Assembly (NCBI RefSeq): GCF_007004725.1
Contig: NZ_ML660167.1
Span: 434,001-498,000, forward strand
Direction: 5' to 3'
DNA: 64,000 bases
From: Aliikangiella coralliicola
GTDB lineage: Bacteria > Pseudomonadota > Gammaproteobacteria > Enterobacterales > Kangiellaceae
The translations under genes were made by a program, and so were the position numbers. The notes under the pieces were generated by a model that saw only the letters and a list, made by a program, of their open reading frames with translations, was not told where the DNA came from and did not search any database. Shown here one piece after another: positions 37,229-59,760 of this stretch (position 1 is its first letter; each line of letters starts with the position of its first letter).

Positions 37229-37235
37229 TTTAAAT

Positions 37236-37241
37236 CTCCTC
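37236..37241 (-). promoter_or_regulatory. Ribosome binding site deciding the KS0-protein start
   Basis: GAGGAG on the minus strand, seven bases before the ATG at 37228. It argues for the internal start over the in-frame ATG 36 bases upstream (37264), and the paralogous protein also begins at the equivalent ACP residues. Confidence 0.75.
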
Positions 37242-37334
37242 TTCTGGGAAGTTTCGTAAATCAACTTTGATAAAGTTCACTTGTTTTATAAAATAATTTT
37301 TGCTTGATTAGATCGTGTTTACCGAGAACGACGA

Positions 37335-43300: not shown

Positions 43301-46300
43301 GGGAAATCCCTTCGTTAGAATTAATAAGCGACTCTTCCCAGGAAACATAGCTTTGGTATCCAGCTAATCCCTCTTGCAGAAAAACTTTATCTCCCTGACA
43401 CAGCTGTTGATAAAAAGTAAATAGCGAACGCAATAACACTTCAGCAGAAGCACCGTCAAATATGATGTGGTGAATTGTGATCAATATAATGTAGCAATCA
43501 TTTGGCGCTTTTTGCTTTCCGTTATTTTTAGATCTGGAGTCTTTCAGAGCGAATAATTCGATTCGAGTGAGCGGCCCATGATTGAGGTCAAAAGATTGTT
43601 TCGCTCGATCTTGTAAGAAAGCTAAAAGTTCTTGTTCATCATCGAGATCGATATCTAGCTCGATAGTTTGTTTTTGAAACGATGTTTCACACTGCTCATC
43701 AAGTTGATGATACAAGACACCATCTACCTCACTAATTCGCGCTGTCAATATTGGAAATTGCTTTTGTAAAAATAGCCAGGCCTGTGCCAGCGCTTCAAGG
43801 TTGAGTTTTTGGCTCACCTTAAAGCACAACGGTACATTGTATGCGCTCATTTCAGGATGAAGTTTTTGTAGAATATAAAGTCCTTTTTCGCCGATGGACA
43901 ATGGAAACTCTCGGCATTGCTCCTCTCTTTTTTTATTCACTTTCTTAACTGTGGTTAGCGGTGCCGATTCAACTGTAACGGCGCCGCGCTCACCTTGTCT
44001 GATTGCTAATTTTTTGCTTTTAGTAGCAGTAAGTCCGTCAACTTTCTCAGGAAAAGATTCCACCAGGTAGTCGCTTAGCTTTTTAATATCCATGTATTTA
44101 AATACTAAGCTGGGTGAAAGTTTTTCTTGAAGAAGTTGGTTAGTTTGTTGAATAAGATCTGCGATCCCCAAAGAGTTCATACCCAGTTCGAGGTAGTTTT
44201 GTTCAATGTCAATCTCATTGAGTTTCTTATCAAGTTGCCGCGCTACGACTTGTTGCAAAAACAATCTGATTTTTTCAACGGAGTCCATAGCAACAGCTTG
44301 ACTTGATTGGTTACTATCTGCAGAAATAACCCATTCTTCTGTCAATGCAGTCTCAACAAACGGCTCTTCGTTTAGCGTATTGTTCTGAATTTCATTCAAG
44401 GGTGATTGTTGAGAAATCTTTGGCCCATCTAATTCTTGTTCGTCACTACTCGACAACCAGTACCTTTGTTTCGCAAAAGGATAAGCCGGTAAGGAGGTTC
44501 GTTGAACCGACTTCCCTTGCCAAATCTCCATCCAGGGAACGACCACACCATTCGTCCACAACAAAGCAACCTGCTGCCACTGAGCCGTTTGAACACTCTC
44601 CCCAACCATCTGGCTCGCCATTTCTTCAGTGATGGAATCCACCAACGGATTTTTTTCTGCCTGGTTTAAATCACAGTGATAAATGCCCCGACTTTCAAAC
44701 TCGCTGGCTTTACCTGCCCCATTCAGAAAGTTGAAGTCCTTAATCAAAGTCAATTTCTTAAGTAATTCATCAGCCGATGTCGCAATCACCGCCAATCTTT
44801 CTGTCATCGCCTCCCGGCCAGTCTGTAAACTGTAAATCAAATCTGCAAATTCAACCCCCGACTCCGCCGAGAGAAAATCAATATACCGGTCAACATAATC
44901 GGCCAGTCGAGCCCGGTCCTTCGCCGAAAGAATGAATAACTGCGCCTGATTGACCGCAGCAGTTTCCTGTTGAAGATGATTGTTTTGTTTCGAGGTGACA
45001 TACTCCTCCAGCACAATATGAACATTCGCCCCACTATCGGCAAAGGAATTAACCCCTGCACGAATGAGCCTGTCCTGCTCCCCGCGGATTCCCTCAAACT
45101 CGATTTCCCGGTCCGCAATATAAAGCGGGTGGGATTTCTGCTTGATATCAATAAAATCACTCACCTGACGTTTCGTTATCGTCGCCGGGAATTTCCGGTG
45201 CTTCAGCGACAACGCCACTTTTATCACACTGGCAATACCACTCGCCGGTTCAAGATGACCGATATTGCCTTTCACACTGCCTAATGCACAGTGTTTATGG
45301 CGATTGGGTTTATGGCCTGGCTTCTGCCCCTTAAACACATTCTTAATCCCTTCAAACTCAAAGGAATCACCCCATTTGGTCGAGTAACCATCCACTTCAA
45401 TATAATCGATTGTTTCCGGATTAATACCTGCCTTGTCATAACAATCCCCTATCACCCGGGTTATCGCTTCATGTTTGATTTCCGACAGGTCATTCGCACC
45501 GCCCCGGTTATTCTGATGACAGGCTTTTATCACCCCGTAGATATGATTGTTATCTCGCTCAGCATCGGCCAGGCGTTTTAATACCACCACGCCAACCCCC
45601 TCTCCCCGGGTAAAGCCGTTGGCATTATCATCAAACACACCACAGGTCCCATCCGGCGATAACATCCCATACTGCGAGCCGGTGATATAGTCATTCACAA
45701 ACAGGTTCAGACAGACACCGCCCGCCACTGCCACTTCACTTTCCTGGTTCAGCAGTGAATAGTAAGCCCGGTTAATCGCCACTGCCGAAGAAGCGCAATT
45801 GGTATTAATTGATTCACTCGGTCCACAGAAATCAAACAGGTAGGATAGCCGGTTGGCCAGGTAATAGGTCGGACTCGATGAGTTAAACAGCGGCGCATTC
45901 GCTATCTGGCCTGCATGGTCTCTTAAGTATTGCTCATACTCGGCATATTCATAACCGATAAACACCCCGGTATTGGAGCCGCGCAGACGCCCCGCATCTA
46001 TCCCGGCATCTTCTAACCCCAGGTAGACCTGTTGCAGTAACAAACGCTCCTGGGGGTCGAGCACTTTGGCTTCATCGGCTGACAGGTTAAAAAACGATGG
46101 GTCGAAACAATCCACATCCTCAATCAACGCGCCCCATTTGGTCACCGTCTTTCCCGGTGTTGGCTCTTGGGCGTAATGTTCTTCCCAGTCCCAGCGCGAC
46201 TTGGGGATTTCTCGAATACTGTTTTTCTCTGTTACCAGGTTATTCCAGAATGTCCTGGCATCTGGTGCATCGGGAAAGCGGCAGCTCAGGCCTACTATGG

Positions 46301-47000
46301 CCACATCAAAATGATGCATTAATGTCTGATCAAAATCAGAGTCGGCTCTACTGGTGTAGTTATCACCACTAATTAACGAAGCCTCTGTTAATTGATAATG
46401 AGATAGCAAATCTTCAAAATGTTGAGAAACTAAAACCTCGACAACTTCGTCGAGAGTTCTGAAAGATTGATGGCTCAAATCAATCGAAAACTTTTGTTTG
46501 ATGTAGTTCAACAAGTTTTCGAAGTAGGACTGGTTCGAGACTTTACTGCTTTTCTCATTTTTAATAAAACGGCGATTACTCTTATGAGAAAGTCGATTCG
46601 ATTGCAAAGCATTAAAGTTAAAAGTATTAAAGTTGGCGGCAGCTATTAATTCTGGCGAGTTTATTTTTGCGTTGTCAAGTTGATTGATTTTGTGTTTACC
46701 AACTTCAGCGTTATCCTTTTGGGTGTCAGCCTGTTCTTTAGTATCAACAGCTACATCGGCCAAATTTTCCTGTATCGTTCTGGCCAGTTCATTAACTGTA
46801 TTGACATCGGAAAATTGTGCCGGAGTCATAGACACATCGAATTTTTTTGACAAATTAGTCATCAATTCCATAGTAATGATGGAATCTAACCCAAAACTTT
46901 CTAACTCAGCGTCAACATCTAACTTACCAGCAGGCAACTTTAATGTTGACTCAACTATTTTGCTTACCTCGCTTAAGACATTAAGCTCAACCGCCCCCAT
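37335..47000 (-). CDS. PKS-NRPS: ACP-KS0-ACP-C-A(Leu)-T-C-A(Leu)-T
   Basis: 3221 aa. ACP 1-80 (FGLDSIITMELM, Ser40); serine-less half carrier segment about 160-210; KS about 231-660 with TNCASSA (Cys402) and EVDGYSTKWGD, so Asp537 stands in for the HGTGT His and chain extension is unlikely; ACP (LGMNSLG, Ser943); C1 with HHIIFDGAS (His1177/1178); A1; T; C2 with HHIVSDGWS; A2; T (near 3151); acidic tail ending TEFEEISL. Both A domains give code DAWFLGNVV (FDAATWEIW, IGGDKL, NYGPTESTVV), a standard leucine code. The start ATG is one base past the aminotransferase stop, with AAGGGA upstream. The first ACP probably receives the chain built by the last KS of the 3632-aa PKS. No AT, no epimerase. 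Confidence 0.95.
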   Translation of the reverse strand: MGAVELNVLSEVSKIVESTLKLPAGKLDVDAELESFGLDSIITMELMTNLSKKFDVSMTPAQFSDVNTVNELARTIQENLADVAVDTKEQADTQKDNAEVGKHKINQLDNAKINSPELIAAANFNTFNFNALQSNRLSHKSNRRFIKNEKSSKVSNQSYFENLLNYIKQKFSIDLSHQSFRTLDEVVEVLVSQHFEDLLSHYQLTEASLISGDNYTSRADSDFDQTLMHHFDVAIVGLSCRFPDAPDARTFWNNLVTEKNSIREIPKSRWDWEEHYAQEPTPGKTVTKWGALIEDVDCFDPSFFNLSADEAKVLDPQERLLLQQVYLGLEDAGIDAGRLRGSNTGVFIGYEYAEYEQYLRDHAGQIANAPLFNSSSPTYYLANRLSYLFDFCGPSESINTNCASSAVAINRAYYSLLNQESEVAVAGGVCLNLFVNDYITGSQYGMLSPDGTCGVFDDNANGFTRGEGVGVVVLKRLADAERDNNHIYGVIKACHQNNRGGANDLSEIKHEAITRVIGDCYDKAGINPETIDYIEVDGYSTKWGDSFEFEGIKNVFKGQKPGHKPNRHKHCALGSVKGNIGHLEPASGIASVIKVALSLKHRKFPATITKRQVSDFIDIKQKSHPLYIADREIEFEGIRGEQDRLIRAGVNSFADSGANVHIVLEEYVTSKQNNHLQQETAAVNQAQLFILSAKDRARLADYVDRYIDFLSAESGVEFADLIYSLQTGREAMTERLAVIATSADELLKKLTLIKDFNFLNGAGKASEFESRGIYHCDLNQAEKNPLVDSITEEMASQMVGESVQTAQWQQVALLWTNGVVVPWMEIWQGKSVQRTSLPAYPFAKQRYWLSSSDEQELDGPKISQQSPLNEIQNNTLNEEPFVETALTEEWVISADSNQSSQAVAMDSVEKIRLFLQQVVARQLDKKLNEIDIEQNYLELGMNSLGIADLIQQTNQLLQEKLSPSLVFKYMDIKKLSDYLVESFPEKVDGLTATKSKKLAIRQGERGAVTVESAPLTTVKKVNKKREEQCREFPLSIGEKGLYILQKLHPEMSAYNVPLCFKVSQKLNLEALAQAWLFLQKQFPILTARISEVDGVLYHQLDEQCETSFQKQTIELDIDLDDEQELLAFLQDRAKQSFDLNHGPLTRIELFALKDSRSKNNGKQKAPNDCYIILITIHHIIFDGASAEVLLRSLFTFYQQLCQGDKVFLQEGLAGYQSYVSWEESLINSNEGISHGEYWQQQLSGELPSFELFSETSKTQTTTFEGKTLIQELPAEIAQWVHQISQSQSVQPSAIFLAVFQLLLHKYTSQEDIIIGMPVMGRTEREFANEIGYFINMLPLRNNCSPSLKFKAFLRNVQSNMLDALYHSSYPFPLMLERLQLNQGEKNPVFQVSYAYHNFVPEADYSLFPHLEALEIETLNQVSQEGDFDLGLEISEDQESFSAYLKYNSDLYSQDSIQRLFENYCVLFKEIANSPDLNIGDYPIIDADEKRRLLIDNNQTKMSYPRKQCIHQLFAKQAKRHPDKIAAVFGQEKLSYQQLYKKSSKLALYLQGQGVKPDSLVGLCVERSLDMLVGMLGILQAGGAYVPLDPNYPEERLSYMLQDISQHNETSIVLTQEKLQDKLNKLVADETQLVDLDNWSTISHRVAELKKQSFKLRQTVKPDNLAYVIYTSGSTGQPKGVMVEHQSLQSLCAWHKKAFEVTEKSRATQVANIAFDAATWEIWPYLLHSASLVIVPNELSLDIEQLNQLIVDNEITHSFLVTPIAQQLLQQFDGKSQQAEQTKLEYLLIGGDKLSKYEDKNYPFTVVNNYGPTESTVVATSFPIEGNFPIQNIGRPIGNTQVYILDANHHPQPVGVAGELHIAGDGLARGYLNQPELTDEKFIDNVFNPGTRLYKTGDMARWLADGTIEYLGRVDTQVKIRGFRIEVGEIETQLNLYPEIKDSVVVVQEHNGNPQLVAFYLAIDSEMGDFTSVSTEKLKAHLQQTLPVYMVPATFAGLKAIPLTANGKVDRKSLEKRTVNIESTQVFSAATTEIEKQLVTIWGELLNLDSENIGVNDNFFELGGHSLIVTQLISMIRSELKIELPLKAVFEHGSIKALAQIISQCEEQATPAIIPVDRSKLESLPLSYAQERLWFIDQLESDNATYNIPGAVVLKGDIDINLIEQAFNLIIARHENLRTTFPVENGQAQQLIQEGFSFKLERADFSHCKARKTRHKKAIQLCQADAIKPFKLATGPLIRGIVIKLAAQEHVLMLNMHHIVSDGWSMVVLINEFELILNELSQYHPEQNKSISLPPLAIQYADYSAWQRNWLENEGVLKRQLAYWQEKLAGLPESLNLMTDFPRPGVQSFTGANLSFSFDSQLTKSLQQFSEKHSCTLYMTLLSAFKVLMYRYTGQEDICVGSPIANRQYGETEKLVGMFVNTLALRSQIKDQDTLADLVSKVKDTCLEAYENQDTPFEKIVDLLRPQRNMAMSPLFQVMFVLQNTDLDRTKRGEVEKQNLPFEIEDFSLDNEISQFDLTFEFAEVENGLSGSIQYCKALFKPETISRMVEHFTTLCQVLMNEPDTPIAALDYVGDSEKQGLLVDNNQTKMSYPRKQCIHQLFAKQAKRHPDKIAAVFGQEKLSYQQLYKKSSKLALYLQGQGVKPDSLVGLCVERSLDMLVGMLGILQAGGAYVPLDPNYPEERLSYMLQDISRHNETSIVLTQGKLQDKLNKLVADETQLVDLDNWSTISHRVAKLKKQSFKLRQTVKPDNLAYVIYTSGSTGQPKGVMVEHQSLQSLCAWHKKAFEVTEKSRATQVANIAFDAATWEIWPYLLHSASLVIVPNELSLDIGQLNQLIIDNEITHSFLVTPIAQQLLQQFDGKSQQAEQTKLQYLLIGGDKLSKYEDKNYPFTVVNNYGPTESTVVATSFPIEGDFPIQNIGRPIANTQVYILDANHHPQPVGVAGELHIAGDGLARGYLNQPELTDEKFIDNVFNPGTRLYKTGDMARWLVDGTIEYLGRVDTQVKIRGFRIEVGEIETQLNLYPEIKDSVVVVQEHNGNPQLVAFYLAIDSETGDFTSVSTEKLKAHLQQTLPVYMVPATFAGLKAIPLTANGKVDRSALEQMPISIASTNEYVAPSNEIEQQLTIICGQLLNLKSEKIGINDNFFELGGHSLLATQFISMIREQLAVDIPLKVLFDVNNLADIASVIKAIKAQTEQMIDIEKSNSDVIDSDTEFEEISL
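37711..39265 (-). repeat. Duplicated Leu adenylation segment, copy 1
   Basis: About 1.55 kb nearly identical to 40975-42529 at constant offset 3264, both inside the same gene. Covers the second Leu A domain. Confidence 0.88.
40975..42529 (-). repeat. Duplicated Leu adenylation segment, copy 2
   Basis: Partner of 37711-39265, the first Leu A domain. The flanking C domains differ strongly, so only the A domain was copied or converted. Confidence 0.88.
44400..46305 (-). repeat. Duplicated KS0 and linker segment, copy 2
   Basis: Partner of 34620-36525. Both copies share the Asp-for-His change at the HGTGT site, so the change predates the duplication or was spread by conversion. Confidence 0.88.
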
Positions 47001-47001
47001 C

Positions 47002-48849
47002 TTAATTCCCTTGCTCTTCTTGGAAATTCTGCAAGTCCGCTTTAATTAAATTCATCAACTTTTCAATCTGTTCATTATTGACTTGTCCCGAACTAACTTG
47101 ACTGGACTCTAATTGACCGGACTCTTTTTGACCACCAACAGACGCAGACTGACCGAAATTATTTTGGCGAAGGTTGTCAAGCGTTGCTACATTTTTAGAA
47201 GGCGCAAGATGATGTTCCGTCGCGAACGACTGGGTGTTATTCTGTTCCTCCTGCTCAACTTCGCAGAAAAAGTTTTGTGCTATAAGCGTTTCTAAGCTTT
47301 CTTTTACGCCTTTGATTACAAATTCAATATCGTCATCGGTATGTGCGGTGGTTAAAAAGCAATTTCCCTGAATGTTAGTTTCAATTCCCTTCATTCTAAG
47401 CAAAATGAAAAATAACGCCTCGGTGATCCCCCAGTAACTATCGATAAATCTAAATCGAAACAATGAGCCAAAATCATCAATGGTAATTGGTAAATTTTTT
47501 GCCAGGAAAAATGCGTTCAGATTCTCAACCAGGTATTTGGTTTTCGCATTCAGTTCTTTCTGAAAATATTGGCAATTATCACTCTGAAGGTCGCCTTTAC
47601 AGCGTTTCTTAATCTCAGATAAAGTCGCATAGACTGAAGCTATTTTAAGTGGGTTTTGCGAATGGGTTCCAGCCATACCGGTACGCTTAGATTTCGGCAT
47701 GGTATCATCGTCTAAGTTCCAGGTACCACCGTCTACCAAGTCCATATATTTAGGCGATCCAGCAATAACGCCAGTGGGTAAACCGCCGCCTGGAATTTTT
47801 CCATAAGTCGCGATATCGGCCTTAATGTTAAAGTAACCTTGCGCTCCGCGATGGCTAATTCTAAAACCGGTGATCATCTCGTCGAAAATTAACGCCATGT
47901 TTTTTTCCAGCGTTAGTTTGCGAACTTCTTTGAGAAACTCAACCGGCTGAATATAAGGGTGTCTGGATTGAACCGGCTCGACTAAAACGCAAGCAATCTC
48001 ATCAGCGTGCGCTTCAATAATATCGAGGTGCTCCATATTTCCATATTCAAGAACAATGATTTGCTCTGCAAACTCTTGCAGCATTCCGGGGCCCATCGCC
48101 AGGCTTCTGCCATGTTGATCGCTCATCGCCGTTACAGCGTCTGACAACCCGTGGTAAGAACCTTCAAAAATCACAATTTTCTTTTTGTTTGTCGCAGCTC
48201 TCGCGATACGCACCGCAAACATAACGGCTTCGGTTCCAGATTGGGTAAATAATACGCGTTCATGTCCGGTGATCTCAGAAAACAGCTTTGATGTTTCAAA
48301 GATTTTCTCGGAATAGCCCGCGAGTGGAATTCCCTGGTCAAGGCTATCTTTTACGGCATTAATTATAAATTCAGGTTTATGCCCGAATAAGTTGACCCCC
48401 ATATCACCAGAGATATCGACGTATTTATTTCCATCGATATCGTACACGTAAGCGCCTTCGGCTTTTTGATAGGTGATTTGGAAATGTAATTTTTTCAAGT
48501 CTTTAATCAGATGAAATGGCCTTCGCTGATCAACAAAATAGTGTTGGTGTTTGGCGATATTTTTCTTAGATTCAGGGACAAACTTCTCATATTCCTGATT
48601 GAGTTGCTCGATATAATTTTGATGTTCTTCGGTAAGGTTCCTCTGATCAATTGCTTTAAGTGTGCTACCTGCCGCCTTAGCAGATAGTTTGTTCTTTAAA
48701 GCATCATCGCCAGACAACTTAACTTTCAACTGCGAGGTTAAAAGATCTTTTTCTTCCTCAGATAGTTTCTGAAAGTTTCGCAATGCTTCCTGCTTATCAA
48801 TATTCTTTGAAAGAATTTTGTCCGCAATTTCATTCATTTCAACCGACAT
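47002..48849 (-). CDS. Class III PLP aminotransferase (GSA-aminotransferase-like)
   Basis: 615 aa from the preferred ATG (48849). The core from about residue 120 shows fold-type I class III motifs: TQSGTEAVMFAVR, EGSYHG, IFDEMITGFR and ATYGKIPGGGLPTG with the PLP lysine at 351. The nearest functional analogues are the aminotransferase domains of iturin/mycosubtilin and microcystin synthases, which convert a beta-ketoacyl carrier thioester to a beta-amino one. Here it is a separate protein, with about 110 extra N-terminal residues and a Gln/Ser-rich C-terminal tail (SGQLESSQVSSGQ). AGAGGA (48858-48863) lies eight bases before this ATG and overlaps the previous stop; the ATG at 48858 is too close to it. 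Position between a KR-less last module and the ACP that would carry its product supports beta-amination; the amino donor is unknown. Confidence 0.88.
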   Translation of the reverse strand: MSVEMNEIADKILSKNIDKQEALRNFQKLSEEEKDLLTSQLKVKLSGDDALKNKLSAKAAGSTLKAIDQRNLTEEHQNYIEQLNQEYEKFVPESKKNIAKHQHYFVDQRRPFHLIKDLKKLHFQITYQKAEGAYVYDIDGNKYVDISGDMGVNLFGHKPEFIINAVKDSLDQGIPLAGYSEKIFETSKLFSEITGHERVLFTQSGTEAVMFAVRIARAATNKKKIVIFEGSYHGLSDAVTAMSDQHGRSLAMGPGMLQEFAEQIIVLEYGNMEHLDIIEAHADEIACVLVEPVQSRHPYIQPVEFLKEVRKLTLEKNMALIFDEMITGFRISHRGAQGYFNIKADIATYGKIPGGGLPTGVIAGSPKYMDLVDGGTWNLDDDTMPKSKRTGMAGTHSQNPLKIASVYATLSEIKKRCKGDLQSDNCQYFQKELNAKTKYLVENLNAFFLAKNLPITIDDFGSLFRFRFIDSYWGITEALFFILLRMKGIETNIQGNCFLTTAHTDDDIEFVIKGVKESLETLIAQNFFCEVEQEEQNNTQSFATEHHLAPSKNVATLDNLRQNNFGQSASVGGQKESGQLESSQVSSGQVNNEQIEKLMNLIKADLQNFQEEQGN

Positions 48850-48861
48850 GTTAATCATCCT

Positions 48862-51800
48862 CTAATAAAGCTTTTCTAGTAATTCTTCAAATGTATAATC
48901 GCTGACCGTTTCTTGATGCTGAGAAGCATTCGAGTTTGAGTCGTATATCGAATCTAATAACGACTCAAAGTCACTTTGTTGTGCTTTGGCTTTCGGCGGC
49001 AAAAAGTCATTATTAAAGGTCAGTGATTTCATGGTTACACAAACTTTGCCCTGACTATCCAGCAGATCAATATCCAGCTTAAGCATTTCATCTAAGGTGC
49101 TACTTCCTCTTGAGTAGCGAATCCAGGCGTACATATCATTCGTGCACGGTGAATTCACTTTGAGATAATCAAGTGCAAATGGCATTGCCGGCTGAGTAGC
49201 TAACTTTTCAAGATCCGAAATTAGACCGGTAGCCGCTTGTAGCACACTTTCCATTGTGCTTGGATGTAAACTGAACTCACCCGCTTCGTTTTCGATGCTT
49301 TTCGGCAATTCCAGTCGTACAAGTTGCTGTTGCTCTCCTTGATAAATTGCTTTGAGTGCGCGCAGAGATTGACTGTAATTAACGCCGGTTTTCTCGATAG
49401 CACCATAAAGCTGCTCAAGGTCTAACTGATTATTTCCAATCTGATCGGCGAGTTGTTCCAAGTCCAGTTTCGGTGCTTTTGTGATAGGGTTCAACACCGC
49501 GGTTCCCTGACAATGAATAATATCTTCAGCACTGTCGCTAGTTGAATTTGCCGTTTCGTTATCTGAGCTCTCGCTGCTGAAAATCTCAAAATCAATTTGA
49601 CCGTTTTCAACTTCAAATAACGCGATAGAAACTTGCCTGTTCTCATCAACCGCAATCGGCTCTCCCCAGGCCGTATCGTATAACTCGATAGTTGTTGTGT
49701 CTTTCTGCAAACGGGTTGCCTGAGTTATTGCTTCATGGACCATTTCAAGACAAGCCATCTCAGGCAACACTTTTATGGAGGAATGCTTTAATGCATCAAG
49801 CGCGTTCTCAGAATTTTCTGATACTAGCTGTTGTTCTTTTAAGAAAAATTCTTTTCCGTTAAAACGCGAACTATAGCTTTGCTGGCTCAGTACCGAAGTA
49901 TTGGTGTGCAACAACGGATGTATCACAGCGGTTGTGGCATTTTTAGAACCCTGGTCACTATTCTTGGTGTCAAACCAGTATCTCTCGCGCTCAAACGGAT
50001 AAGTCGGTAAGCTGATTCTTTTTGGTTTGTTATTTGAAACCGAGCCGGCTTGATTTGAGTTCGACTGATAAAGTCGATTCCAGTCAATCTCTTGACCTTT
50101 AACCCAGGCGCTGATTAGCTCATCATAGTTTCTCTCGTTAACCCACTCACCGATAGTATTATCATCAGCTTCAAGTTCATCTTTTTTCCGGCTAATTCTT
50201 CCCTGATAAACACCATCAAGTTTATCGGTAGAAATTGCCTGCTCATTCGCATCATCCACAGCAAAAGCACTCAGTTTTTCAACTAATTGTTCAACCGAGT
50301 TAGCAACAAACCCCATGCGTTCTTCCATGGCGTCACGACCAATCTGTAGCGTGTAAGCAAAATTAACCAGGTTGACTTCATATTTTTCCAGATGAGACAA
50401 CATTAAATTGGCGTAGGCTTTAAGTCTTTCTTTGTTCTTTGCTGAAAGCACAAATACCAAAGGTTCTTCGCTAACAGATAGTGGTTGATTCTGGTCGCAA
50501 ATAAATTCCTCTAACACTACATGGACATTGGCACCACCAAAACCAAACGAACTCACACCTGCTCGGCGTGGTAGTTCATTACCAGCTTCATCCAGAATCG
50601 CATCCCACGGACGAGTTTTATCCACCATATAAAAAGGCGTGCCTTTTAGATTGATATATGGGTTGAGCTTTTCAAAATGAAGTAACGCTGGAATCTGCTT
50701 GTTTTTAATGGATAACAAGACTTTCAAAATACCGGCGATGCCCGCAGCAGTTTCCAGGTGACCAATATTGGTTTTAGCCGAGGTCAAACCAACATGCGGA
50801 GTTTTAGCCGGGCCTTTGTTATGCTTTTTATACAACTCAGAAAATGCTTTCTTCATTGCCTGAATTTCAATCGGATCACCGAGACTGGTTCCGGTACCGT
50901 GACATTCAATGTAACCTACTGTGGTTGGATCAACTTGCGCTTTCGAATAGGCTTCGACTAATAGATCCGCTTGTGCATTCGGATTCGGCGCAGTCAACAT
51001 GGTTGCTTTACCGCCATGATTTTCTGCCGTTGCTTTAATCAGCGCGTAGATATGATTGCCATCAGCCTCAGCCATGGAGAGAGGCTTAATGAAAATGGCC
51101 CCGGAACCTTCTCCCCTGACGTAACCGTCAGCTCTTTCGTCGAAAGTTTTACATTTTCCATCAGAAGCTAACATTCCCGCCGCGCCGAATGAAATAAACG
51201 CAGCGGCGGTTAACATCACTTGAACACCGCCCACAATCGCCATGTCACAGCTGCCAGTGTGAATTGATTCAATGGCTCGGTGAAGTGCGACTAATGAACT
51301 GGAACATGCCGTGTCGAGCGGTGCACTTGGACCATGTAGGTTAAGCAAAAAAGAAATACGATTAGCTAAAATAGCGTGAGAGGTTCCTGATGCCGAATAA
51401 CCGTCGAGTTCGGCGTTCTCCGCAGCCATCAGGTCAATGTAATCTCTGGTTGCCGCACCGACGAACAGACCAGTTTTAGTTCCTGATAATTCCGAAACTT
51501 TGTGACCGGCATCTTCGATGGCGTTCCAGACTGTTTCCAGAAAGACACGTTGTTGAGGATCCATCATTTCAGCTTCACGTGGTGAAATTCCCCAGAAAAG
51601 CGGGTCGAATTTATCAACCTCTTTCATAAAACCGCCCCATATGGATTTGGTTTTATTTTCTTCTTCTAGAGGGTCTCCATAGTACTCTTCCCAACTCCAT
51701 CGATCTTCGGGAATAACAGTCACCATGTTATTCTCCGCATTCTTCAATTTTTCCCAATATTCTTCTAAATCCTCAGATTGCGGCATCACACCGCTAGCGC

Positions 51801-54800
51801 CAACAATCGCAATAGGCTGTTGCACAAATCTTAAGTCTGGTGAAAAACTTCCTTCGGCCACCGGCGCGTTAGAAACCTGGTCTGCTTGCGGAGCCCAACC
51901 TTTGTTAATGATAATTGGGTCTTGATTATCAGTAACAGCATTAGTTGATTCAGGCTGCGAGCTTGCTGCAGCAGGACTTGAACTGCTTGAAGTTTGATGA
52001 ACTTTTAGTACTTCATCGGTATGTTCCTCGGCAATATATTTTGCAATTTCTCGAATGTTAGGATATTCGAAAAATAATACCGGCGTTACATCTAACGGAT
52101 AAATATCATTAACCGCATTGGCGAAAGTGGTTAGTCCAATTGAGTCAAATCCAAGGTCAAGTAAAATGGTGTCAAGATCAACGTCTTCTGCATCCAATTT
52201 CAGAAAATCCATGACAATCTTAGAGAGTTCGGTTTGGACTAAAATGGTTAACTCGCCATCGGCCTCAGTGTTCGAGGATGATTCCGCACCAGAAGATTCA
52301 GCATCAACAGAAGTAATTGTTTCAGGCACCTCTTCTTCAATCAGCCCCCAAGCTCGCTCAATTTTTTCCTGAACGCCTTCAATAACAGCGAAGTTTGCCT
52401 TACTCGATCCCAAACCCTTGATGAAGGTTTCAAGTCCAGTTTCACTACTTAGTGGTTTGATGCCCAGATTCTTTCTGAAGAAAAGCTCGGTTTGTTCATC
52501 TAGCTGCATTCCTCCACCAGCCCAGATTGACCAGTTAAGACTCAAGGTTTTTCCTGTACGCTCCCCTTTCATTCGCGCAAGCTCACGTTTGTGCGCGAAT
52601 GAATCCATAAAGTGATTGGCAAAAGAATAATCACTTTGACCTGCGTTTCCGGCGAGCGCGGCCAGCGAGGAGAACATGACGAAAAAGTCCAGGTTCTCAT
52701 TTTTAGTTAGCTCATCTAAATGCGTTGTTCCGTATAACTTGGGCGCAAAAACGGCTTTCATTTCATCGAGCGTTTTGTTCCTGACATAAGAATCTCTCAG
52801 CACACCTGCGCTATGAATGATGCCGTTTATTTCGCCAAAGTGAGATTTGCTTTCTTGAATTAAATTCTTGACCGATTCGTGCTTAGATACATCGGCTGGT
52901 ACATAGAGTATTTCGGCGCCTGATTTTCTCAGCTCATCTAGTTGACTTTCTCGCTCCGCTAATAACTTAGAGCGACCAGTTAATATCAACTTAGCACGGC
53001 ACTCTTTGGCTAAATACTCCGCAAAGATAAGGCCGAGACCGCCTGCACCACCAGTGATTAAATAAACACCATTTTCCTTTATTCTGAGGTGTTCCGACGA
53101 TTCGCTTTTAGCGTTTTCATCAGCGTTCAGGGTTTGCTCTAGATTAAGCTCTTTGATGTGCTTAACAGATCGCTCCTGTTGTTGATAGCGAACGGTTAAA
53201 TCGTAGCGTGTATCCAGCAGAAATTCGGACAAAACGACATTCAGCAGGCTATCGATGCTTGTATCATCTTGTTGTGTTTCTTGTTGTGTTTCTTGTTGTA
53301 CTTCTTGTAGCTGAACTTCGAGAATTTTACATCTTAGCCGCGGGCTTTCAGCTAACAGAATTTTTGCGAAACCATTGATTGCTTCATTGTGAGGTTGTGG
53401 TTCATCTACATTCACCTGGTAAAGGTAAAGTAACTCGATCTTGCTTTCGAGTTTTTGCTCGATTATTGATTGACACAACGGAAGGAAAGAATAAACACCT
53501 CTTTCCAATGGTTCTTGTAATAAAGTATCTCGATCGCTCTTGTTATTTTTAACTTGAGTTGGCCAGGCAAAACAAACCTTACCGAATTCCCAACTATTGT
53601 CTTTTAAAGTTTCGAACAATTTAACAAAGTCGTCGCTCTTATTTGTGTTAACTGTGTAATTTCCATTGTCCAGCACTTTGAAAGTTTTACCCGGCTTAAC
53701 CAAAACGATATCGTCTTCATTTCGCCCTGCTTGTTTGAGCCTCTTGCGATAAGCATCTGTGAGTTTTTCGTCTGTATCGAAGAGTAAAATTGACGGCAAA
53801 TCACTATTAGAGTCAAGTACCCCGGCTAAAGGTGTACTTTCCCATTCGGATGAGTAGTAGAGTTTGGAAAATTCATCGTCATCACTTTCTGCTGCGGGCT
53901 TTTCGTGAACATCAGTTAAGGGAACGCCGACAGAGTCTTTGACTTTTACCAGGACTTTTCCGTCTTCACCAACAATAAAAACATTCTTTTTCGATAAGCC
54001 CGAATTCGACTTTTTGCCGCCGGTCGCGTCAGTCACATAGGTATAACAATTTTCAGTCAGCGGATGGAGGACTTCGACCTCGCCTAGAGAGTAAGGTACG
54101 ATCATTTCGCCCGAAGCATCTCCTCCGAGTGATGCGCCCATAAATGCCTGGAAAGAACCATCGACTAACGACGGGTGCAGTATGTACTCATGAAAATCAT
54201 TCATGCGAATTTCTGGTATCTTTAGTTCACCAAGAACTTCGTCATCATTTTTGTAGATGTCCTGTAAAACCTGAAAGCTAGGCCCCAAATCTAATCCAAG
54301 GGACTTAAATAACGGATAAGATGATTTTCCGTCGGTCACTTTGACACATCGAGAACGAATGCTTTCAACGTCGATGTATTCGTCTTCTGCTTCTAGTTCC
54401 TGTTGAGTCGCATAAAAAAGTTTTCCCTGTGAATAGAGCTGTTTGCCGCCATCTTCTCTTTCACTAAATACTTCAAATTGAACTGAATCGCCGCTGGGCT
54501 TCAGTTCAATAAAAGTTTCATTAGGAATCGAGTCCTCTACAGTAAGTGGGCTAACCCAAACAATATTTTTAATTTTCTGAACTTTTCTGCCAGCGGCTAT
54601 CTCACCGGCTTTGCGGGCAAAATCCAGGTATCCAACACCGGGAAGCGTCGGGATCTCTGATACCAGATGGTCATAAATGAAAAATTCATTTTCATTAAAG
54701 GTTTTCTTGAAAACCTGGCGCTCAAAGGTCGATTCATTCGAATCGATTAGTGGGTGCATTCCCGAAATCATTGCACCGCTGTTAGATATTCCTTCTTGCC

Positions 54801-57800
54801 CATCGATTCTGGATATCCAATGACGCTTATCCGCAAAAGGATACGTGGGTAGTGAAATTCTTTTTCCTGTTTCATTCGCTGAACTTTGAGACTGCATTCC
54901 TTGCCAATCAGTCAGTAAACCATCAATCCAGAGTTGTGCTAACTTTTGCGCATTTCTGCCCTGGGAAAGCAAACCAATGAATTCTTCTTTTTCTTTACGA
55001 TTAAGTAATTTGGTAATGCCTTCAGCATTTTTGACGTTGCCCGTCAGAATTTTTTCGTCTTTTTTGCCTTCAATAAAAAGATTAAGAAGTGTTGTCAGTT
55101 CCTTTTTATTTTTCGCGATCGCGACCAAGCGGTGGTCGAATGATTTTCTGCCGACCTGTAAGGTATGCGCAATATCATTAATATCCGACTGTCGTTCTTT
55201 ATCTTGCGCAAGATCAGTTTGTAAATAGTGTTTGAGGCGTTTCGCTGATTCGCGTAATTGATCTTCATTGCGCGCCGATAACGGAAATATCAAATTTTGA
55301 GAAGGCTGCTTTTTCGATTCACTTTTCGCCGTATCCTCTATCGGTTGCGATTCATACTTTTCGATAATGATATGTGCGTTGGAGCCGCCAGCGCCAAATG
55401 AACTGATCCCGGCTCTTAGCGGGTATCGCTTTCCATCAACTTCTTTTTCTTTCCACTCTTCAACTTTTTGCTCGACATAGAACGGAGAGTTGTGAAATTC
55501 AATAAACTCATTGAGCTCAGATGAATGCAGGGAAGGAACCAGCTTGCGGTGTCTCATTTGTAGGAGAACTTTGCACACGCCAACGATTCCCGCAGCAGCT
55601 TCTAAATGTCCAATATTGGTTTTTACAGAGCCAATAGCACAGGTTTGATTTTCAACTTCATAATTCTCGAAAGCATTTGTTAATCCAGTAATTTCGATCG
55701 GATCACCAAGTTCGGTACCTGTTCCGTGGGCCTCGATATATCCAATGGTGCGCGCATCGATATCAGCTTTTTTAAGCGCCGCCAACACTAAATCGCCTTG
55801 AGCTTTAGGGTTTGGCACCGAGTAACCACTGGTGCGTCCGCCGTGGTTAATCGCAATACTTTTAATCACGCCGTAAATATTGTCATTATCTTGCGCAGCT
55901 TTCGCTAGGGGCTTAAGAACTATTGCGCCGATACCTTCTCCAGGAACATAGCCATTAGCCCCCTTACCAAAGGTACGGCATAAACCATCTTCTGACAGTA
56001 AGCCACCGGCAACAGTAATTTCCTGTTTACATTGATGAACATCCAGGTTGACACCACCGACAATGGCGCTAGAACATTCTCCTTTCTGAATGGCTTCGCT
56101 GGCGAGATAAATCGCTGTCAGACTCGCCGAGCAAGCAGTATCGACGGCAAGGCTCGGCCCTGAAAGATTCATAAAGTAAGACACGCGATTAGCGATACTC
56201 CAAAGAAAAGAGCTTGCAATCGCTTCGTTTCCAGCAAGTCTTTCTTCCGCGCCAACTGTCTGATACATTGCCCATACCGCGCCTACAAATACGCCTATGT
56301 CACGCTGCTTACCATCTTGATTGGCAGGATTATCTTTCGCCAGAGATTCAGGATAGTAGCCCGCATCTTCCAAAGCCTCCCAGGCAACTTCCATGAAAAT
56401 TCTTTCTTGAGGATCGAGAGTCTCAGCTTCCCGTGGAGAAATGTTGAAAAACAATGAATCAAATCTATCAACGTCATCAATAAAGCCACCGCGATATTTT
56501 TTACTGGTCTCCCGCTGACGTCTTCTGCTAAAACGTGTATCTGGAATATCACCGATGCAGTCTTTTCCATCTACCAGGTTTTGCCACATCTCATCCATAT
56601 TCTTCGCTTGGGGATAACGACCGGACATACCGACGATAGCAATTTCTTTAGCCTTGTTTTCGCTTGAAGATATTGACTCGGTTGAAAGATCATTCTCTGT
56701 CAGCAATTGATTTGATTCGAATGACTTGGATGGTTGAGATGCTGATGGTTCGCCTCCTGCCAGGTGGGAACCTGTATCGCTTCCAGTTGTATACTTGGAA
56801 ATTGAATCGACAGGCGTATTTTCTAATTGAGTTTCTGCTTCGGTTTCTCGCACAACACTGGGAGAAACCATTTTTGCAGAAAGATTATGATACTGTTTTA
56901 AAACATAATTACTATTAACATTTCCAATCGCACTTGAGCCGTCCGTGGTAGCCACCACTTCAGGAATATTTTCTTTTCTGCTGAAAAGTCCTACTAGCTT
57001 GGTTGCTATCTCTTCAGCCGATTCTCGCGATAATCCGACAGGGATTGCCAGTCGTACCAAATCATTGAGAGAAGTATTTTTTTGCATTCCAACGCTATGC
57101 TCTCCAGCACGAATACCCGTATTGAGGTACAACCAGGCTAAAAAGGATTCGACTGGTTTTTCAAAGTCTTTAAACTCAGCAATTTGCTTGACGTCGATTA
57201 AAATACAATGCCCGCCGACAGGTTGTACGATAGGGATTTGGTTTTGCAGTAACGCTTTTGAGATAAGTTTGACCGACTGCATTCTTCGCAATGTCTGAAT
57301 TTCGATTTGTTTCTTATTTTGCAGCGCAAGCCCGATCAGCTTCTTATCGATTACATTTAGCCCACTTCCCTCTTCCTCAGATTGCTTTTGCAATCGTTCA
57401 AAGAGTTTGGCGTCATTAGTAGCGATTAACCCGCCTTTATTAATGCAGAAATCCTTGGCTAAACTCACAGTGATGGCATCAGCATAGGAATATATTTCTT
57501 GAACCACCGACCAAACGTCCTTCTCTGCATACTCAGTTTCGTTTTCTCGTATATACTGCGCATTTTCAACTACGCGAGTCCCATCAATAACCAGAGGAAT
57601 CGAGTGTTTGGTTAATAAGGACTTAACCTGCTTTAGATGCTGCATGGAGATTGGATGACCGCCAACAGCATTGTCGCTCACTTCAAGACAAACAAAAGCA
57701 ATTGAATCTGGTTCATGTTCCACTTTCTTCTGCAGTGCTTCCCATTCTAGCTCTCCTTTATAAATCTGGTTCGAGTCTAACTTGAAAACCTCTGAAGACG

Positions 57801-59760
57801 GGATTTCCTGAGGCGTAAAACCGTTTTCGATCTGACTGAATATCCAGGTAGGAAAAAGTAGGTTTTGAGGTACTGTTCCCTTCTTAGGCCAGGCTTTACA
57901 GAAGATGCTTTCAGCGGCTCGGCCTGACTCAGTTAACAAAAAGTATGAGAAAGGGAAAATTGCTCTCAAGCTTTTCTCAAGGCTTCCAGGTCGCTGGAGT
58001 TGGCTGTGTAAAAGTTTCATCTGTTTGTCGATACAAGGCATTTTCAACTGCGCCCACGAGTCGGTTTTCAAATCAAACTCGACTTGTTCGCAAGGAACAT
58101 TGAGAGGGTTGTAACCAAAATCAGATAAAACAAGCGAACGCTTCTCTCCTTCAATAACCATTTCAGCAAATGAGCTTTGCACTGATGAAGGTGCTGTTTG
58201 TACTGTTTTATTTTTGGAAGAAGTTTTTTCTTCGACGATTGTTTTATCTTCGACAATAGTCTGTGAGTTTTCTACTTTTGACTCGACAACAAGATGTGGG
58301 CTCGGAAGCGCCTGCGCTGAAGAATTTGTTTTCGAGGGATCAGCAATCATCATGATAATATCGATAACATTATCGGGGTTGCTACTACCCACTTCACGGC
58401 ATAAATAAATGGTTTTATTCTCAGGACGAAACTTATTTTTAAACTGCAAATTACCTTCATCATTGAAAATATTTTGATCACGTAATTCGTCAAGGATTTG
58501 GTCGACAGCGGGATCTGCAGTTGGAGAAGACTCTAGTTTACAACCATAAGTGCCGCCGAGGCTGAGCATATTGCTACCTTCGGCAACAAGAATTTCAATA
58601 ATTTTGACGATGGCAAATTCTAACCCGCCGAGCGGCATACTTTTGGGATAGAACTCCAAATCCATTAGATAGCCATTTTGCTCCGATGACATTGAGGAAA
58701 TCAATATCGCGTTTTGTAGAACATCATTGCTGTAAGTGATAAAAACGCGATGTTGGTCACTGAGCTTACCAGCCAGGATTTCCTCTTTGACAATATGAAT
58801 CAGCGGATTGACCATCGTTCTGGTCTCACACCATTGGTCAATGATGTCGGCGATATTTTGATCAATCTGAGGATTAGAACCACAACGATATTCTTCAGTG
58901 TGACACTTACCCGCCTTTTCAAACTTAGAGACTTGATATCTAAGGCGACGCATTGAACCGCCTTTCAGAGTAAATTTTTGCAGGTCTAACACACGTTGTA
59001 CAACACCAAAAGGAGTCGCCGAAAACTGAACCTCGCCAACTTTATCGATGGGATGTCCAGAAAACATGTTCAATTCAAAGTTATTCTCAACGCAGTATTG
59101 GCGCAATTCCTCTGCGATAACGTCTAAATATTCATTGGGCCCCGTATAGGCATAAACAAGGATAATATTTTTGCCGTGGCTAAAATTGAAATAACCTTTC
59201 TTTTCACCGCCAACAAAAAGATAAGGCGCGATATTTCTGGTGCCTCTTGATACCGAAGTTTCATTTTTATAGTCTTCAAATAACTGTTGCACTGTCGCAT
59301 TTAATTGGGCGTCTTTAGAAACCTCTTTTTCTAAAATGACAATAGGAAGTTTTTTAGACGATGCTTGAATTTGAGACGCTTCAGCCGCGTGTTCTTTTAG
59401 TTCAGTTTTGCTCGCTGTTTCACTCGGTTCCTTTGCTATGTCTTTCGAACCTGTATCGGTTGACTGAGTTGAATTTTCTAATTCTGCTGCAAACTTGGTG
59501 TTTAGCGTCTTATCGTGCTTTTTCACAAAATAAAGCGCTAAATCATTAATGTTGAAGTTTTCAAAAAGCAGCGTTTTAGGCAAAGTTCCAAAATCGGCTT
59601 CCAGCTTCTTAATAATTTTGAGCACGTGAAACGAGTTAACTCCCAGCTCTCCAAAAGGAGCGAAGGAATCAAAATTTGCACTTAACGAGTCTGCGGCCTC
59701 TGACATTAGCGACTTAAGATAAGACTCTGTCAATTCTTGTAATAATTCTTGATCAATCAT
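48862..59760 (-). CDS. Trans-AT PKS with embedded GNAT-like and PLP C-X lyase domains
   Basis: 3632 aa, start ATG 59760 after AGAGAG. Order: ACP 1-85 (LGVNSFHVL, Ser43); GNAT/DUF2156-like domain about 135-480 (MRRLRYQVSKFEKAGK); beta-eliminating lyase domain about 545-955; KS1 from 1038 (DTACSAS, Cys1210; HGTGT present); DH (His1698 in DHLVSEIPTLP, where the motif Gly is Glu; Asp1867); KR (TGGAGGLG, Tyr2378, Asp of B-type); ACP (GFDSIGL, Ser2540); KS2 (Cys2819; HGTGT present); DH-like domain 3240-3570 with no catalytic His and Glu for Asp (HPSTMES). It ends TFEELLEKLY with no ACP, so the last module is completed by another protein, probably the ACP of the 3221-aa protein. No AT. It is the first biosynthetic gene after a 691-bp non-coding region. 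Confidence 0.93.
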   Translation of the reverse strand: MIDQELLQELTESYLKSLMSEAADSLSANFDSFAPFGELGVNSFHVLKIIKKLEADFGTLPKTLLFENFNINDLALYFVKKHDKTLNTKFAAELENSTQSTDTGSKDIAKEPSETASKTELKEHAAEASQIQASSKKLPIVILEKEVSKDAQLNATVQQLFEDYKNETSVSRGTRNIAPYLFVGGEKKGYFNFSHGKNIILVYAYTGPNEYLDVIAEELRQYCVENNFELNMFSGHPIDKVGEVQFSATPFGVVQRVLDLQKFTLKGGSMRRLRYQVSKFEKAGKCHTEEYRCGSNPQIDQNIADIIDQWCETRTMVNPLIHIVKEEILAGKLSDQHRVFITYSNDVLQNAILISSMSSEQNGYLMDLEFYPKSMPLGGLEFAIVKIIEILVAEGSNMLSLGGTYGCKLESSPTADPAVDQILDELRDQNIFNDEGNLQFKNKFRPENKTIYLCREVGSSNPDNVIDIIMMIADPSKTNSSAQALPSPHLVVESKVENSQTIVEDKTIVEEKTSSKNKTVQTAPSSVQSSFAEMVIEGEKRSLVLSDFGYNPLNVPCEQVEFDLKTDSWAQLKMPCIDKQMKLLHSQLQRPGSLEKSLRAIFPFSYFLLTESGRAAESIFCKAWPKKGTVPQNLLFPTWIFSQIENGFTPQEIPSSEVFKLDSNQIYKGELEWEALQKKVEHEPDSIAFVCLEVSDNAVGGHPISMQHLKQVKSLLTKHSIPLVIDGTRVVENAQYIRENETEYAEKDVWSVVQEIYSYADAITVSLAKDFCINKGGLIATNDAKLFERLQKQSEEEGSGLNVIDKKLIGLALQNKKQIEIQTLRRMQSVKLISKALLQNQIPIVQPVGGHCILIDVKQIAEFKDFEKPVESFLAWLYLNTGIRAGEHSVGMQKNTSLNDLVRLAIPVGLSRESAEEIATKLVGLFSRKENIPEVVATTDGSSAIGNVNSNYVLKQYHNLSAKMVSPSVVRETEAETQLENTPVDSISKYTTGSDTGSHLAGGEPSASQPSKSFESNQLLTENDLSTESISSSENKAKEIAIVGMSGRYPQAKNMDEMWQNLVDGKDCIGDIPDTRFSRRRQRETSKKYRGGFIDDVDRFDSLFFNISPREAETLDPQERIFMEVAWEALEDAGYYPESLAKDNPANQDGKQRDIGVFVGAVWAMYQTVGAEERLAGNEAIASSFLWSIANRVSYFMNLSGPSLAVDTACSASLTAIYLASEAIQKGECSSAIVGGVNLDVHQCKQEITVAGGLLSEDGLCRTFGKGANGYVPGEGIGAIVLKPLAKAAQDNDNIYGVIKSIAINHGGRTSGYSVPNPKAQGDLVLAALKKADIDARTIGYIEAHGTGTELGDPIEITGLTNAFENYEVENQTCAIGSVKTNIGHLEAAAGIVGVCKVLLQMRHRKLVPSLHSSELNEFIEFHNSPFYVEQKVEEWKEKEVDGKRYPLRAGISSFGAGGSNAHIIIEKYESQPIEDTAKSESKKQPSQNLIFPLSARNEDQLRESAKRLKHYLQTDLAQDKERQSDINDIAHTLQVGRKSFDHRLVAIAKNKKELTTLLNLFIEGKKDEKILTGNVKNAEGITKLLNRKEKEEFIGLLSQGRNAQKLAQLWIDGLLTDWQGMQSQSSANETGKRISLPTYPFADKRHWISRIDGQEGISNSGAMISGMHPLIDSNESTFERQVFKKTFNENEFFIYDHLVSEIPTLPGVGYLDFARKAGEIAAGRKVQKIKNIVWVSPLTVEDSIPNETFIELKPSGDSVQFEVFSEREDGGKQLYSQGKLFYATQQELEAEDEYIDVESIRSRCVKVTDGKSSYPLFKSLGLDLGPSFQVLQDIYKNDDEVLGELKIPEIRMNDFHEYILHPSLVDGSFQAFMGASLGGDASGEMIVPYSLGEVEVLHPLTENCYTYVTDATGGKKSNSGLSKKNVFIVGEDGKVLVKVKDSVGVPLTDVHEKPAAESDDDEFSKLYYSSEWESTPLAGVLDSNSDLPSILLFDTDEKLTDAYRKRLKQAGRNEDDIVLVKPGKTFKVLDNGNYTVNTNKSDDFVKLFETLKDNSWEFGKVCFAWPTQVKNNKSDRDTLLQEPLERGVYSFLPLCQSIIEQKLESKIELLYLYQVNVDEPQPHNEAINGFAKILLAESPRLRCKILEVQLQEVQQETQQETQQDDTSIDSLLNVVLSEFLLDTRYDLTVRYQQQERSVKHIKELNLEQTLNADENAKSESSEHLRIKENGVYLITGGAGGLGLIFAEYLAKECRAKLILTGRSKLLAERESQLDELRKSGAEILYVPADVSKHESVKNLIQESKSHFGEINGIIHSAGVLRDSYVRNKTLDEMKAVFAPKLYGTTHLDELTKNENLDFFVMFSSLAALAGNAGQSDYSFANHFMDSFAHKRELARMKGERTGKTLSLNWSIWAGGGMQLDEQTELFFRKNLGIKPLSSETGLETFIKGLGSSKANFAVIEGVQEKIERAWGLIEEEVPETITSVDAESSGAESSSNTEADGELTILVQTELSKIVMDFLKLDAEDVDLDTILLDLGFDSIGLTTFANAVNDIYPLDVTPVLFFEYPNIREIAKYIAEEHTDEVLKVHQTSSSSSPAAASSQPESTNAVTDNQDPIIINKGWAPQADQVSNAPVAEGSFSPDLRFVQQPIAIVGASGVMPQSEDLEEYWEKLKNAENNMVTVIPEDRWSWEEYYGDPLEEENKTKSIWGGFMKEVDKFDPLFWGISPREAEMMDPQQRVFLETVWNAIEDAGHKVSELSGTKTGLFVGAATRDYIDLMAAENAELDGYSASGTSHAILANRISFLLNLHGPSAPLDTACSSSLVALHRAIESIHTGSCDMAIVGGVQVMLTAAAFISFGAAGMLASDGKCKTFDERADGYVRGEGSGAIFIKPLSMAEADGNHIYALIKATAENHGGKATMLTAPNPNAQADLLVEAYSKAQVDPTTVGYIECHGTGTSLGDPIEIQAMKKAFSELYKKHNKGPAKTPHVGLTSAKTNIGHLETAAGIAGILKVLLSIKNKQIPALLHFEKLNPYINLKGTPFYMVDKTRPWDAILDEAGNELPRRAGVSSFGFGGANVHVVLEEFICDQNQPLSVSEEPLVFVLSAKNKERLKAYANLMLSHLEKYEVNLVNFAYTLQIGRDAMEERMGFVANSVEQLVEKLSAFAVDDANEQAISTDKLDGVYQGRISRKKDELEADDNTIGEWVNERNYDELISAWVKGQEIDWNRLYQSNSNQAGSVSNNKPKRISLPTYPFERERYWFDTKNSDQGSKNATTAVIHPLLHTNTSVLSQQSYSSRFNGKEFFLKEQQLVSENSENALDALKHSSIKVLPEMACLEMVHEAITQATRLQKDTTTIELYDTAWGEPIAVDENRQVSIALFEVENGQIDFEIFSSESSDNETANSTSDSAEDIIHCQGTAVLNPITKAPKLDLEQLADQIGNNQLDLEQLYGAIEKTGVNYSQSLRALKAIYQGEQQQLVRLELPKSIENEAGEFSLHPSTMESVLQAATGLISDLEKLATQPAMPFALDYLKVNSPCTNDMYAWIRYSRGSSTLDEMLKLDIDLLDSQGKVCVTMKSLTFNNDFLPPKAKAQQSDFESLLDSIYDSNSNASQHQETVSDYTFEELLEKLY
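53270..53320 (-). repeat. Gln/Glu microsatellite in the PKS DH-KR linker
   Basis: A 12-base unit repeated about three times encodes QQETQQETQQ in the structural part before the KR of the 3632-aa PKS. In frame; likely replication slippage. Confidence 0.7.
56895..58130 (-). other. Tyrosine phenol-lyase/tryptophanase-like domain in the PKS
   Basis: Residues about 545-955 of the 3632-aa PKS. Visible matches to tyrosine phenol-lyase: SGRAAES (Arg614, for Arg100), VVSD-type strand then NAVGGHPISM, VIDGTRVVENA (Asp726 and Arg729, for Asp214 and Arg217), AKDFCINKGG (Lys769, for the PLP lysine 257) and VRLAIP (Arg903, for carboxylate-binding Arg404). The Asp-to-Lys spacing is 43 residues in both. The Tyr that assists phenol departure is not evident, so the leaving group probably differs. 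The domain should cleave a C-beta to heteroatom bond of an amino acid or amino-acid adduct, perhaps on the adjacent ACP. Confidence 0.82.

Follow-up and report, generated by a model that had tools for sequence, protein, structure and literature searches.

Predicted sulfur installation by the N-terminal ACP-DUF-SH unit of a trans-AT polyketide synthase from Aliikangiella coralliicola

What does a PLP-dependent domain of the tyrosine phenol-lyase (TPL) superfamily do at the very start of a polyketide synthase (PKS)? The question is raised by a 64,000-nucleotide stretch of DNA from Aliikangiella coralliicola, referred to as the window, which covers positions 434001-498000 of contig 8 in a 7.04-Mb genome. 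A sequence-only reading of this DNA had proposed a PKS beginning with an ACP, a GNAT-like domain and a PLP lyase, and had pointed to the DUF-SH didomain of LnmJ, from leinamycin biosynthesis, as its closest parallel.

The DUF-SH didomain of the window PKS

The PKS gene occupies the minus strand between 59760 and 48862 (coordinates are those of the window unless a contig or locus is named), starts with ATG and encodes 3632 residues, of which residues 1-955 correspond to 56895-59760. On this protein, Pfam models matched two PP-binding stretches, LPG_synthase_C at residues 207-455 (1.1e-15) and Beta_elim_lyase at residues 593-881 (1.7e-29), as well as KS, DH and KR; the LPG_synthase_C/DUF2156 domain lies immediately N-terminal to the PF01212 domain. 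With the addition of models built for this analysis, from which the domain order was derived, the product of 48862..59760 (minus strand) was read as a trans-AT PKS protein with the order ACP-DUF-SH-KS-DH-KR-ACP-KS-DH. The proposed start of the protein was thus confirmed. The N-terminal ACP (residues 1-90; 59491..59760) carries the motif K-T-L-L-F and no Trp flag, and is followed by the DUF domain (58297..59346) and the SH domain (56956..58143, residues 540-935, borders approximate), all on the minus strand. In one scan of genome_contigs, DUF-SH relatives were confirmed at 121 places, so that the tridomain is real and chance can be excluded as its origin.

The SH domain was compared with proteins of solved structure. 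The top match was 9cen, a PKS domain (5.5e-62, 213.2 bits), with TPL ranking after it (7.2e-49, 169.8 bits) and tryptophanase further down. A grouping with catabolic lyases only, which would have spoken against the leinamycin parallel, was therefore not found. The four residues that had been picked out from the sequence, Lys769 (the PLP lysine, codon 57454..57456, minus strand), Asp726, Arg614 and Arg903, were all correct, as they align with Lys257, Asp214, Arg100 and Arg404 of TPL. In the same alignment, Asn697, Phe636 and Arg729 correspond to TPL positions 185, 123 and 217. The suspected loss of the Tyr that helps phenol leave was also borne out, with Leu588 at the position of TPL Tyr71, and the sequence supports a leaving group other than phenol; TPL Arg381 is deleted. 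When the best 80 of the 121 relatives were counted, Lys257, Asp214 and Arg217 (TPL numbering) were retained in 80/80, Arg404 in 78 (with a gap in the other two) and Arg100 in 70; Tyr71 was present in none and Arg381 was deleted in all 80, the leinamycin-type members included. A 2013 paper had already reported that Arg381 is missing from the PKS members compared, leinamycin's included, and that the TPL Tyr is replaced in a Lysobacter model (PMC3870968; here and below, papers are cited from the portions of their text available to us).

The window SH domain scores below the NCBIfam cut-off for TPL (183.1 of 720.7 bits) and, also by the changes at Tyr71 and Arg381, does not belong to the TPLs. It has the traits of a DUF-SH didomain, in that the PLP Lys, Asp and Arg are kept, Arg381 is deleted and 9cen is nearer than TPL. 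With the SH domain of Streptomyces sp. CB01635 (L117), named as a leinamycin producer in PMC8479088, it shares 35.7% identity. The sequence thus supports the parallel to LnmJ, and we regard the domain as a predicted C-S lyase.

Concerning the DUF domain, LPG_synthase_C was matched by 47/47 members of the DUF alignment (E up to 0.001), and in the opposite direction the DUF profile found MprF/LpiA chains in the PDB, the best at 3.1e-12. A D-L-M-R stretch in these chains reads D-L-E-F in the DUF, where D, E and F are invariant in the 47 members. The Arg of D-L-M-R is essential in MprF. Our literature search found no paper on essential MprF residues, and none that pairs a GNAT domain with a beta-eliminating lyase. 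Judging from the profile matches and from D-L-E-F in place of D-L-M-R, the DUF is a remote MprF-type relative of the aminoacyl-tRNA-dependent transferases with an altered centre. In the leinamycin literature, conjugate addition of thiocysteine has been proposed as its role (PMC7618002).

Classes of relatives and their partner ACP

The best 80 of the 121 relatives fall into few architectures. Forty-four start with ACP-DUF-SH-KS, five start with DUF-SH-KS and have a separate ACP ORF on the same strand just upstream, and one is an ACP-DUF-SH in a split ORF. A further 19 have the leinamycin-type arrangement KS-ACP-ACP(-ACP)-DUF-SH-TE, seven carry the unit mid-protein after KR (six) or DH (one), and four are cut by contig ends. 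In a DUF-SH tree of these relatives, from which five of the 80 were omitted (L080, L126, L113, L105 and L095) and to which the window was added, the N-terminal class is set off by a single branch (50 rows including the window, support 98). Another branch sets off the leinamycin type (19 rows, support 100), apart from the N-terminal class. The window belongs to the N-terminal class on both grounds, since ACP-DUF-SH comes first in its protein with KS next, and its row lies inside the support-98 group.

Members of the N-terminal class were found in Bacteroidota, Pseudomonadota and Acidobacteriota. The smallest starred tree group that contains the window has four rows, among them two Kangiellaceae and a Marinicella; nevertheless, the shortest paths from the window lead to Bacteroidota rows, and transfer of ACP-DUF-SH between phyla is therefore likely. 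In the order of the window the DUF is present in 4 of 394 genomes, the window's own included; in a second Kangiellaceae genome (G721, L121) the match lies inside a 2937-residue open frame. Leinamycin-type terminal modules also occur outside actinobacteria, in the two gammaproteobacteria Endozoicomonas sp. G2_1 (L122, with three ACPs) and Pseudomonas sp. H3(2019) (L112). A highly divergent DUF-SH on a long branch was seen in a Spirochaetales MAG (L123, 10001-12469), and the DUF-SH search patterns used gave no match in viral contigs. An apparent absence of SH from two leinamycin-type plasmid clusters in tblastn was rejected, as reading the sequences revealed SH in both.

The ACP next to the DUF proved to be of a distinct type. 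The motif G..[KQ]TL[LM]F was present in the DUF-adjacent ACPs of 46/46 N-terminal-class, 7/7 mid-protein and 19/19 leinamycin-type loci (72/72, or 74/74 with the two cut loci L110 and L126, which were outside the first grouping and were added afterwards), and in 5/5 separate ACP ORFs. Among controls it was found in 0/19 upstream leinamycin ACPs, 0/12 ECH-module ACPs and 5/55 ordinary KR-module ACPs; at one locus (L094) both tandem ACPs carry it. A model of the N-terminal-class ACP outscored two control models on 19/19 DUF-adjacent leinamycin ACPs and on 1/19 upstream ones. On the seven mid-protein ACPs this model was best in three and the ordinary model in four, so the grouping of these seven relies on the motif.

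In leinamycin biosynthesis, beta-branching takes place on the first tandem ACP only, and the residues concerned have been named (PMC7618002). Three of them, Arg39, Asp/Glu41 and Tyr60, are all absent in 46/46 N-terminal-class ACPs; in the upstream leinamycin ACPs (18 of the 19, L122's being omitted) they are present in 17/18, 17/18 and 18/18, respectively. The count covered these three and the Asp before the ACP serine, leaving aside Asp63. That Asp, also listed in PMC7618002, is present in 39/46 N-terminal-class ACPs, yet in 54/55 ordinary ACPs as well. By its motif and its missing residues, the N-terminal-class ACP is the counterpart of the second leinamycin ACP, and a role as acceptor for HMGS is unlikely. 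Since both classes have this ACP type, the comparison also suggests that the second leinamycin ACP serves DUF-SH as well as the TE, which off-loads from it (PMC7618002).

The cluster, the feeding module and the proposed reaction

The PKS/NRPS locus extends over about 107 kb of contig 8 (386637-493760), all on one strand, and the DUF-SH gene is its first PKS gene. Next to it lies a class-III aminotransferase gene (47002..48858, minus strand), and a gene of this kind also comes directly after the DUF-SH gene in the clusters of Kordia, Aquimarina and Fulvivirga. The minus strand further encodes a 3221-residue protein, ACP-KS0-ACP-C-A-PCP-C-A-PCP, whose KS0 lacks the first catalytic His (37335..47000); an ACP-KS0-ACP protein followed by NRPS and NRPS-TE proteins (23329..37264); and an NRPS-PKS protein that extends beyond the window edge and includes an ECH beta-branching module and three Trp-flag ACPs (1..20103). 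After the PKS/NRPS genes come an MBL-fold gene, HMGS, two ECHs, PvcA-like and TauD-like genes, a HAD hydrolase, a discrete KS and two acyltransferases. The beta-branching context noted earlier is thus genuine, with ECH domains and Trp-flag ACPs present and the one HMGS of the genome inside the cluster. The supposed Ala-type NRPS opening is not an A-first one, since a TubC_N docking domain stands at the start of that protein, ahead of C-A-PCP-C-A-PCP.

Several other features of these clusters were observed. Three DNA-repeat pairs lie inside the window's cluster (34622-36505 with 44403-46286, 96.3% identical; 37509-39265 with 40773-42529, 93.7%; 17594-19125 with 27901-29417, 95.1%), and their identity of 93.7-96.3% over 1.5-1.9 kb points to recent copying or conversion of modules. 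Outside the window and near HMGS, a DIT1/PvcA isonitrile-synthase-like gene (PF05141, 2e-82; contig 8, 380325-382117) adjoins the TauD-like gene, a pair present only in the window's cluster among the seven laid out; the product of this cluster may carry an isonitrile. A START-like protein of 250 residues is encoded at 20459-21211, with relatives in five of the six other laid-out clusters of the class, Caballeronia being the exception. In Kordia (L128, 3227-3790), a NusG-like gene (PF02357) that looks like an operon-specific antiterminator directly precedes the DUF-SH gene.

For the N-terminal class, clusters were laid out from the window, Kordia, Aquimarina, Lysobacter, Steroidobacter, Fulvivirga and Caballeronia. 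All seven contain a PKS protein ending KS-KR-ACP-KS-DH. Matched by free ends, this KS-DH is the only candidate feeder of the DUF-SH protein in Caballeronia and in Lysobacter, whose cluster showed no TE protein. For Aquimarina, Fulvivirga and Steroidobacter several orders fit by ends, and a KS-DH feeder there requires that the proteins act in the order of their genes. An additional DH-KR-ACP-KS protein, with an ambiguous place in the line, occurs in the window and in Kordia, so that in these two a KS lacking a DH may be the direct feeder. The His and Asp of the feeding DH are retained in 7/7 split modules and in the three mid-protein cases aligned (three of the seven such loci); the Gly of HxxxGxxxxP is replaced in four of these ten DHs (Kordia, Aquimarina, Steroidobacter and L101). 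In the split module no KR is present in cis and the Cys-His-His triad of the KS is complete, so that the module does not clearly qualify as a non-elongating bimodule. Taking into account the terminal KS-DH, the kept His and Asp, and the KR or DH that precedes the ACP in mid-protein relatives, the acceptor is probably an enoyl chain; this is the simplest reading, despite the lack of a cis KR and the intact triad.

The KS domains on both sides of the unit were also placed in trees. Both KS trees were restricted to pieces of more than 350 residues, or more than 300 for the loci added to the first tree. The 111-row tree held the seven clusters and up to 13 hand-chosen loci; from the 243-row tree seven loci repeating laid-out clusters were omitted, and its 'contiguous' row L126 is a cut leinamycin-type locus. 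In the 243-KS tree, the terminal feeding KSs form one clade in 7/7 cases (support 100), and 58/58 KSs that follow SH, including that of the window (55081..56673, minus strand, borders approximate), fall in one clade (support 99). A joining of the feeding KSs with contiguous-module KSs, seen in the 111-row tree with support 92, was not recovered in the 243-row tree and was dropped. KS clades of trans-AT PKSs tend to track the incoming substrate. By this trend, the single clade of post-SH KSs suggests that these domains have a common, probably sulfur-bearing substrate.

From these sequence features we consider it probable that ACP-DUF-SH is a sulfur-installing unit in a mid-line trans-AT PKS module, fed with an enoyl chain by KS-DH. 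The upstream KS-DH at the C-terminus of another protein would load the N-terminal ACP with an alpha,beta-unsaturated chain, and L-thiocysteine (or L-cysteine) would be added at the beta carbon with the aid of the DUF. SH would then bind the adduct as an external aldimine and break the C-S bond within it, so that pyruvate and ammonia depart while the chain retains -SSH (or -SH), and the specialised KS would forward the sulfur-bearing chain. We infer the protein order, the enoyl acceptor and the sulfur donor, as we do the DUF and SH reactions, that of SH by analogy with GnmT-, LnmJ- and WsmR-SH, which have been assayed as active (PMC8479088).

A different acceptor was also considered: as in module 8 of leinamycin, HMGS would build a beta-branch on the ACP at the N-terminus. 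HMGS is present in 17/17 genomes checked (16 chosen and the window's own) and lies inside the cluster in 8/8 clusters laid out, the split module offers no cis KR, and leinamycin-type DUF-SH does use a beta-branched acceptor (PMC7618002). Nevertheless, these clusters also contain ECH modules with Trp- or Phe-flag ACPs, which account for the HMGS, and we therefore rejected its presence as a sign of beta-branching at the DUF ACP. The latter, without the three named residues in every case, resembles the leinamycin ACP that is inactive in beta-branching (PMC7618002), and we judge an HMGS-made acceptor unlikely.

More improbable still is a loading module in which the DUF charges the ACP with an amino acid and SH eliminates the side chain to leave a starter. 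The position of the DUF-SH gene as first PKS gene of its locus would suit such a role, as would the unit's place at the protein start at 49 of the best 80 of 121 loci (five with the separate upstream ACP ORF) and in one split ORF, and the kinship of the DUF to tRNA-dependent aminoacyl-phosphatidylglycerol synthases. On the other hand, ACP-KS0-ACP-TE comes after the DUF-SH protein (two ORFs in Caballeronia) in the Kordia, Aquimarina, Fulvivirga and Caballeronia clusters, where other proteins still have a free KS or KS-DH end; the seven mid-protein relatives carry the unit after KR or DH; and the kept carboxylate-binding Arg suits a free amino acid adduct rather than a thioester. As for an SH without catalytic activity, or with a different PLP function, in the N-terminal class, the loss of the TPL phenol-protonating residues might be taken as a sign, but the same residues are gone in leinamycin-type SH, a type of domain whose activity has been shown in assays (PMC8479088), and the invariance of Lys257, Asp214 and Arg217 in the 80 relatives counted speaks against it, leaving this reading very little probability.

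Comparison with known DUF-SH systems

The window unit is an instance of the DUF-SH didomain known from leinamycin research, and its architecture is already in print. The earlier suggestion that such a PKS would be notable for lying outside the actinobacterial group does not stand: CP-DUF2156-PLP3-KS-KR-CP-KS proteins, of the same layout as the window PKS, were tabulated in 2013 for Kordia algicida (A9ECY5) and Lysobacter sp. ATCC 53042 (F8TUA6) (Table 2, PMC3870968), three non-leinamycin DUF-SH families were reported in 2021 (PMC8479088), and DUF-SH modules outside the leinamycin family with one ACP and no TE have been noted (PMC7618002). The available text of PMC11260071 and PMC7930024 holds nothing further on the N-terminal DUF-SH class, and among the papers listed by our literature search no product structure for it appeared. 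With the tridomain known, what is new here is the type of partner ACP, the feeding DH and the clade of post-SH KSs.

With TPL and tryptophanase the SH domain shares the superfamily, the PLP Lys, Asp214, Arg217 and Arg404; it differs from TPL (28.5% identity) in lacking Tyr71 and Arg381 and in being fused into a PKS. The C-terminal domain of the MprF/LpiA aminoacyl-phosphatidylglycerol synthases is homologous to the DUF by profile and differs in the D-L-M-R stretch. The leinamycin-family DUF-SH (LnmJ, GnmT and WsmR; PMC8479088) has the same pair of domains in the same order, the same ACP type and catalytic residues, and the same losses relative to TPL. The leinamycin-type module is terminal, with tandem ACPs before the didomain and TE after it, whereas the window unit has a single ACP before it and KS after it. 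The window lacks such a terminal module, its DUF-SH lies outside the leinamycin tree group, and a query with an annotated LnmK (L034) found no LnmK-like acyltransferase/decarboxylase in its cluster; the same query matched Endozoicomonas at 4.8e-83 and Aquimarina weakly. The leinamycin logic ascribed to the cluster thus fails in its details, as the one ACP is of the non-beta-branching type, a KS takes the place of the TE, and the feeder is probably a dehydratase rather than an HMGS branch.

These differences raise the possibility, to which we give slightly less than even weight, that the N-terminal class follows a second, internal sulfur logic, in which a DH-made enoyl is held on a DUF-dedicated ACP, the persulfide or thiol remains line-bound, and a specialised KS clade carries the chain on; by the same homology, the leinamycin sulfur step would occur on the second tandem ACP. 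PMC7618002 leaves open which tandem ACP receives the sulfur (pathways a and b), and a step on the second, if true, would settle that choice. A large class in which DUF-SH functions with one ACP only and in the absence of a TE amounts to a natural experiment that points to the ACP needed by the sulfur chemistry, and it makes the leinamycin question testable with purified domains. Were the proposal correct, ACP-DUF-SH would be a portable cassette, placeable after an ordinary dehydrating module, and the N-terminal class should give polyketides with internal sulfur. The closest known counterpart of the window cluster in plan is that of Kordia algicida OT-1 (L063), which belongs to the same tree class and has the same general organisation; to this plan the window adds NRPS modules after the ACP-KS0-ACP parts and the isonitrile-synthase-like gene.
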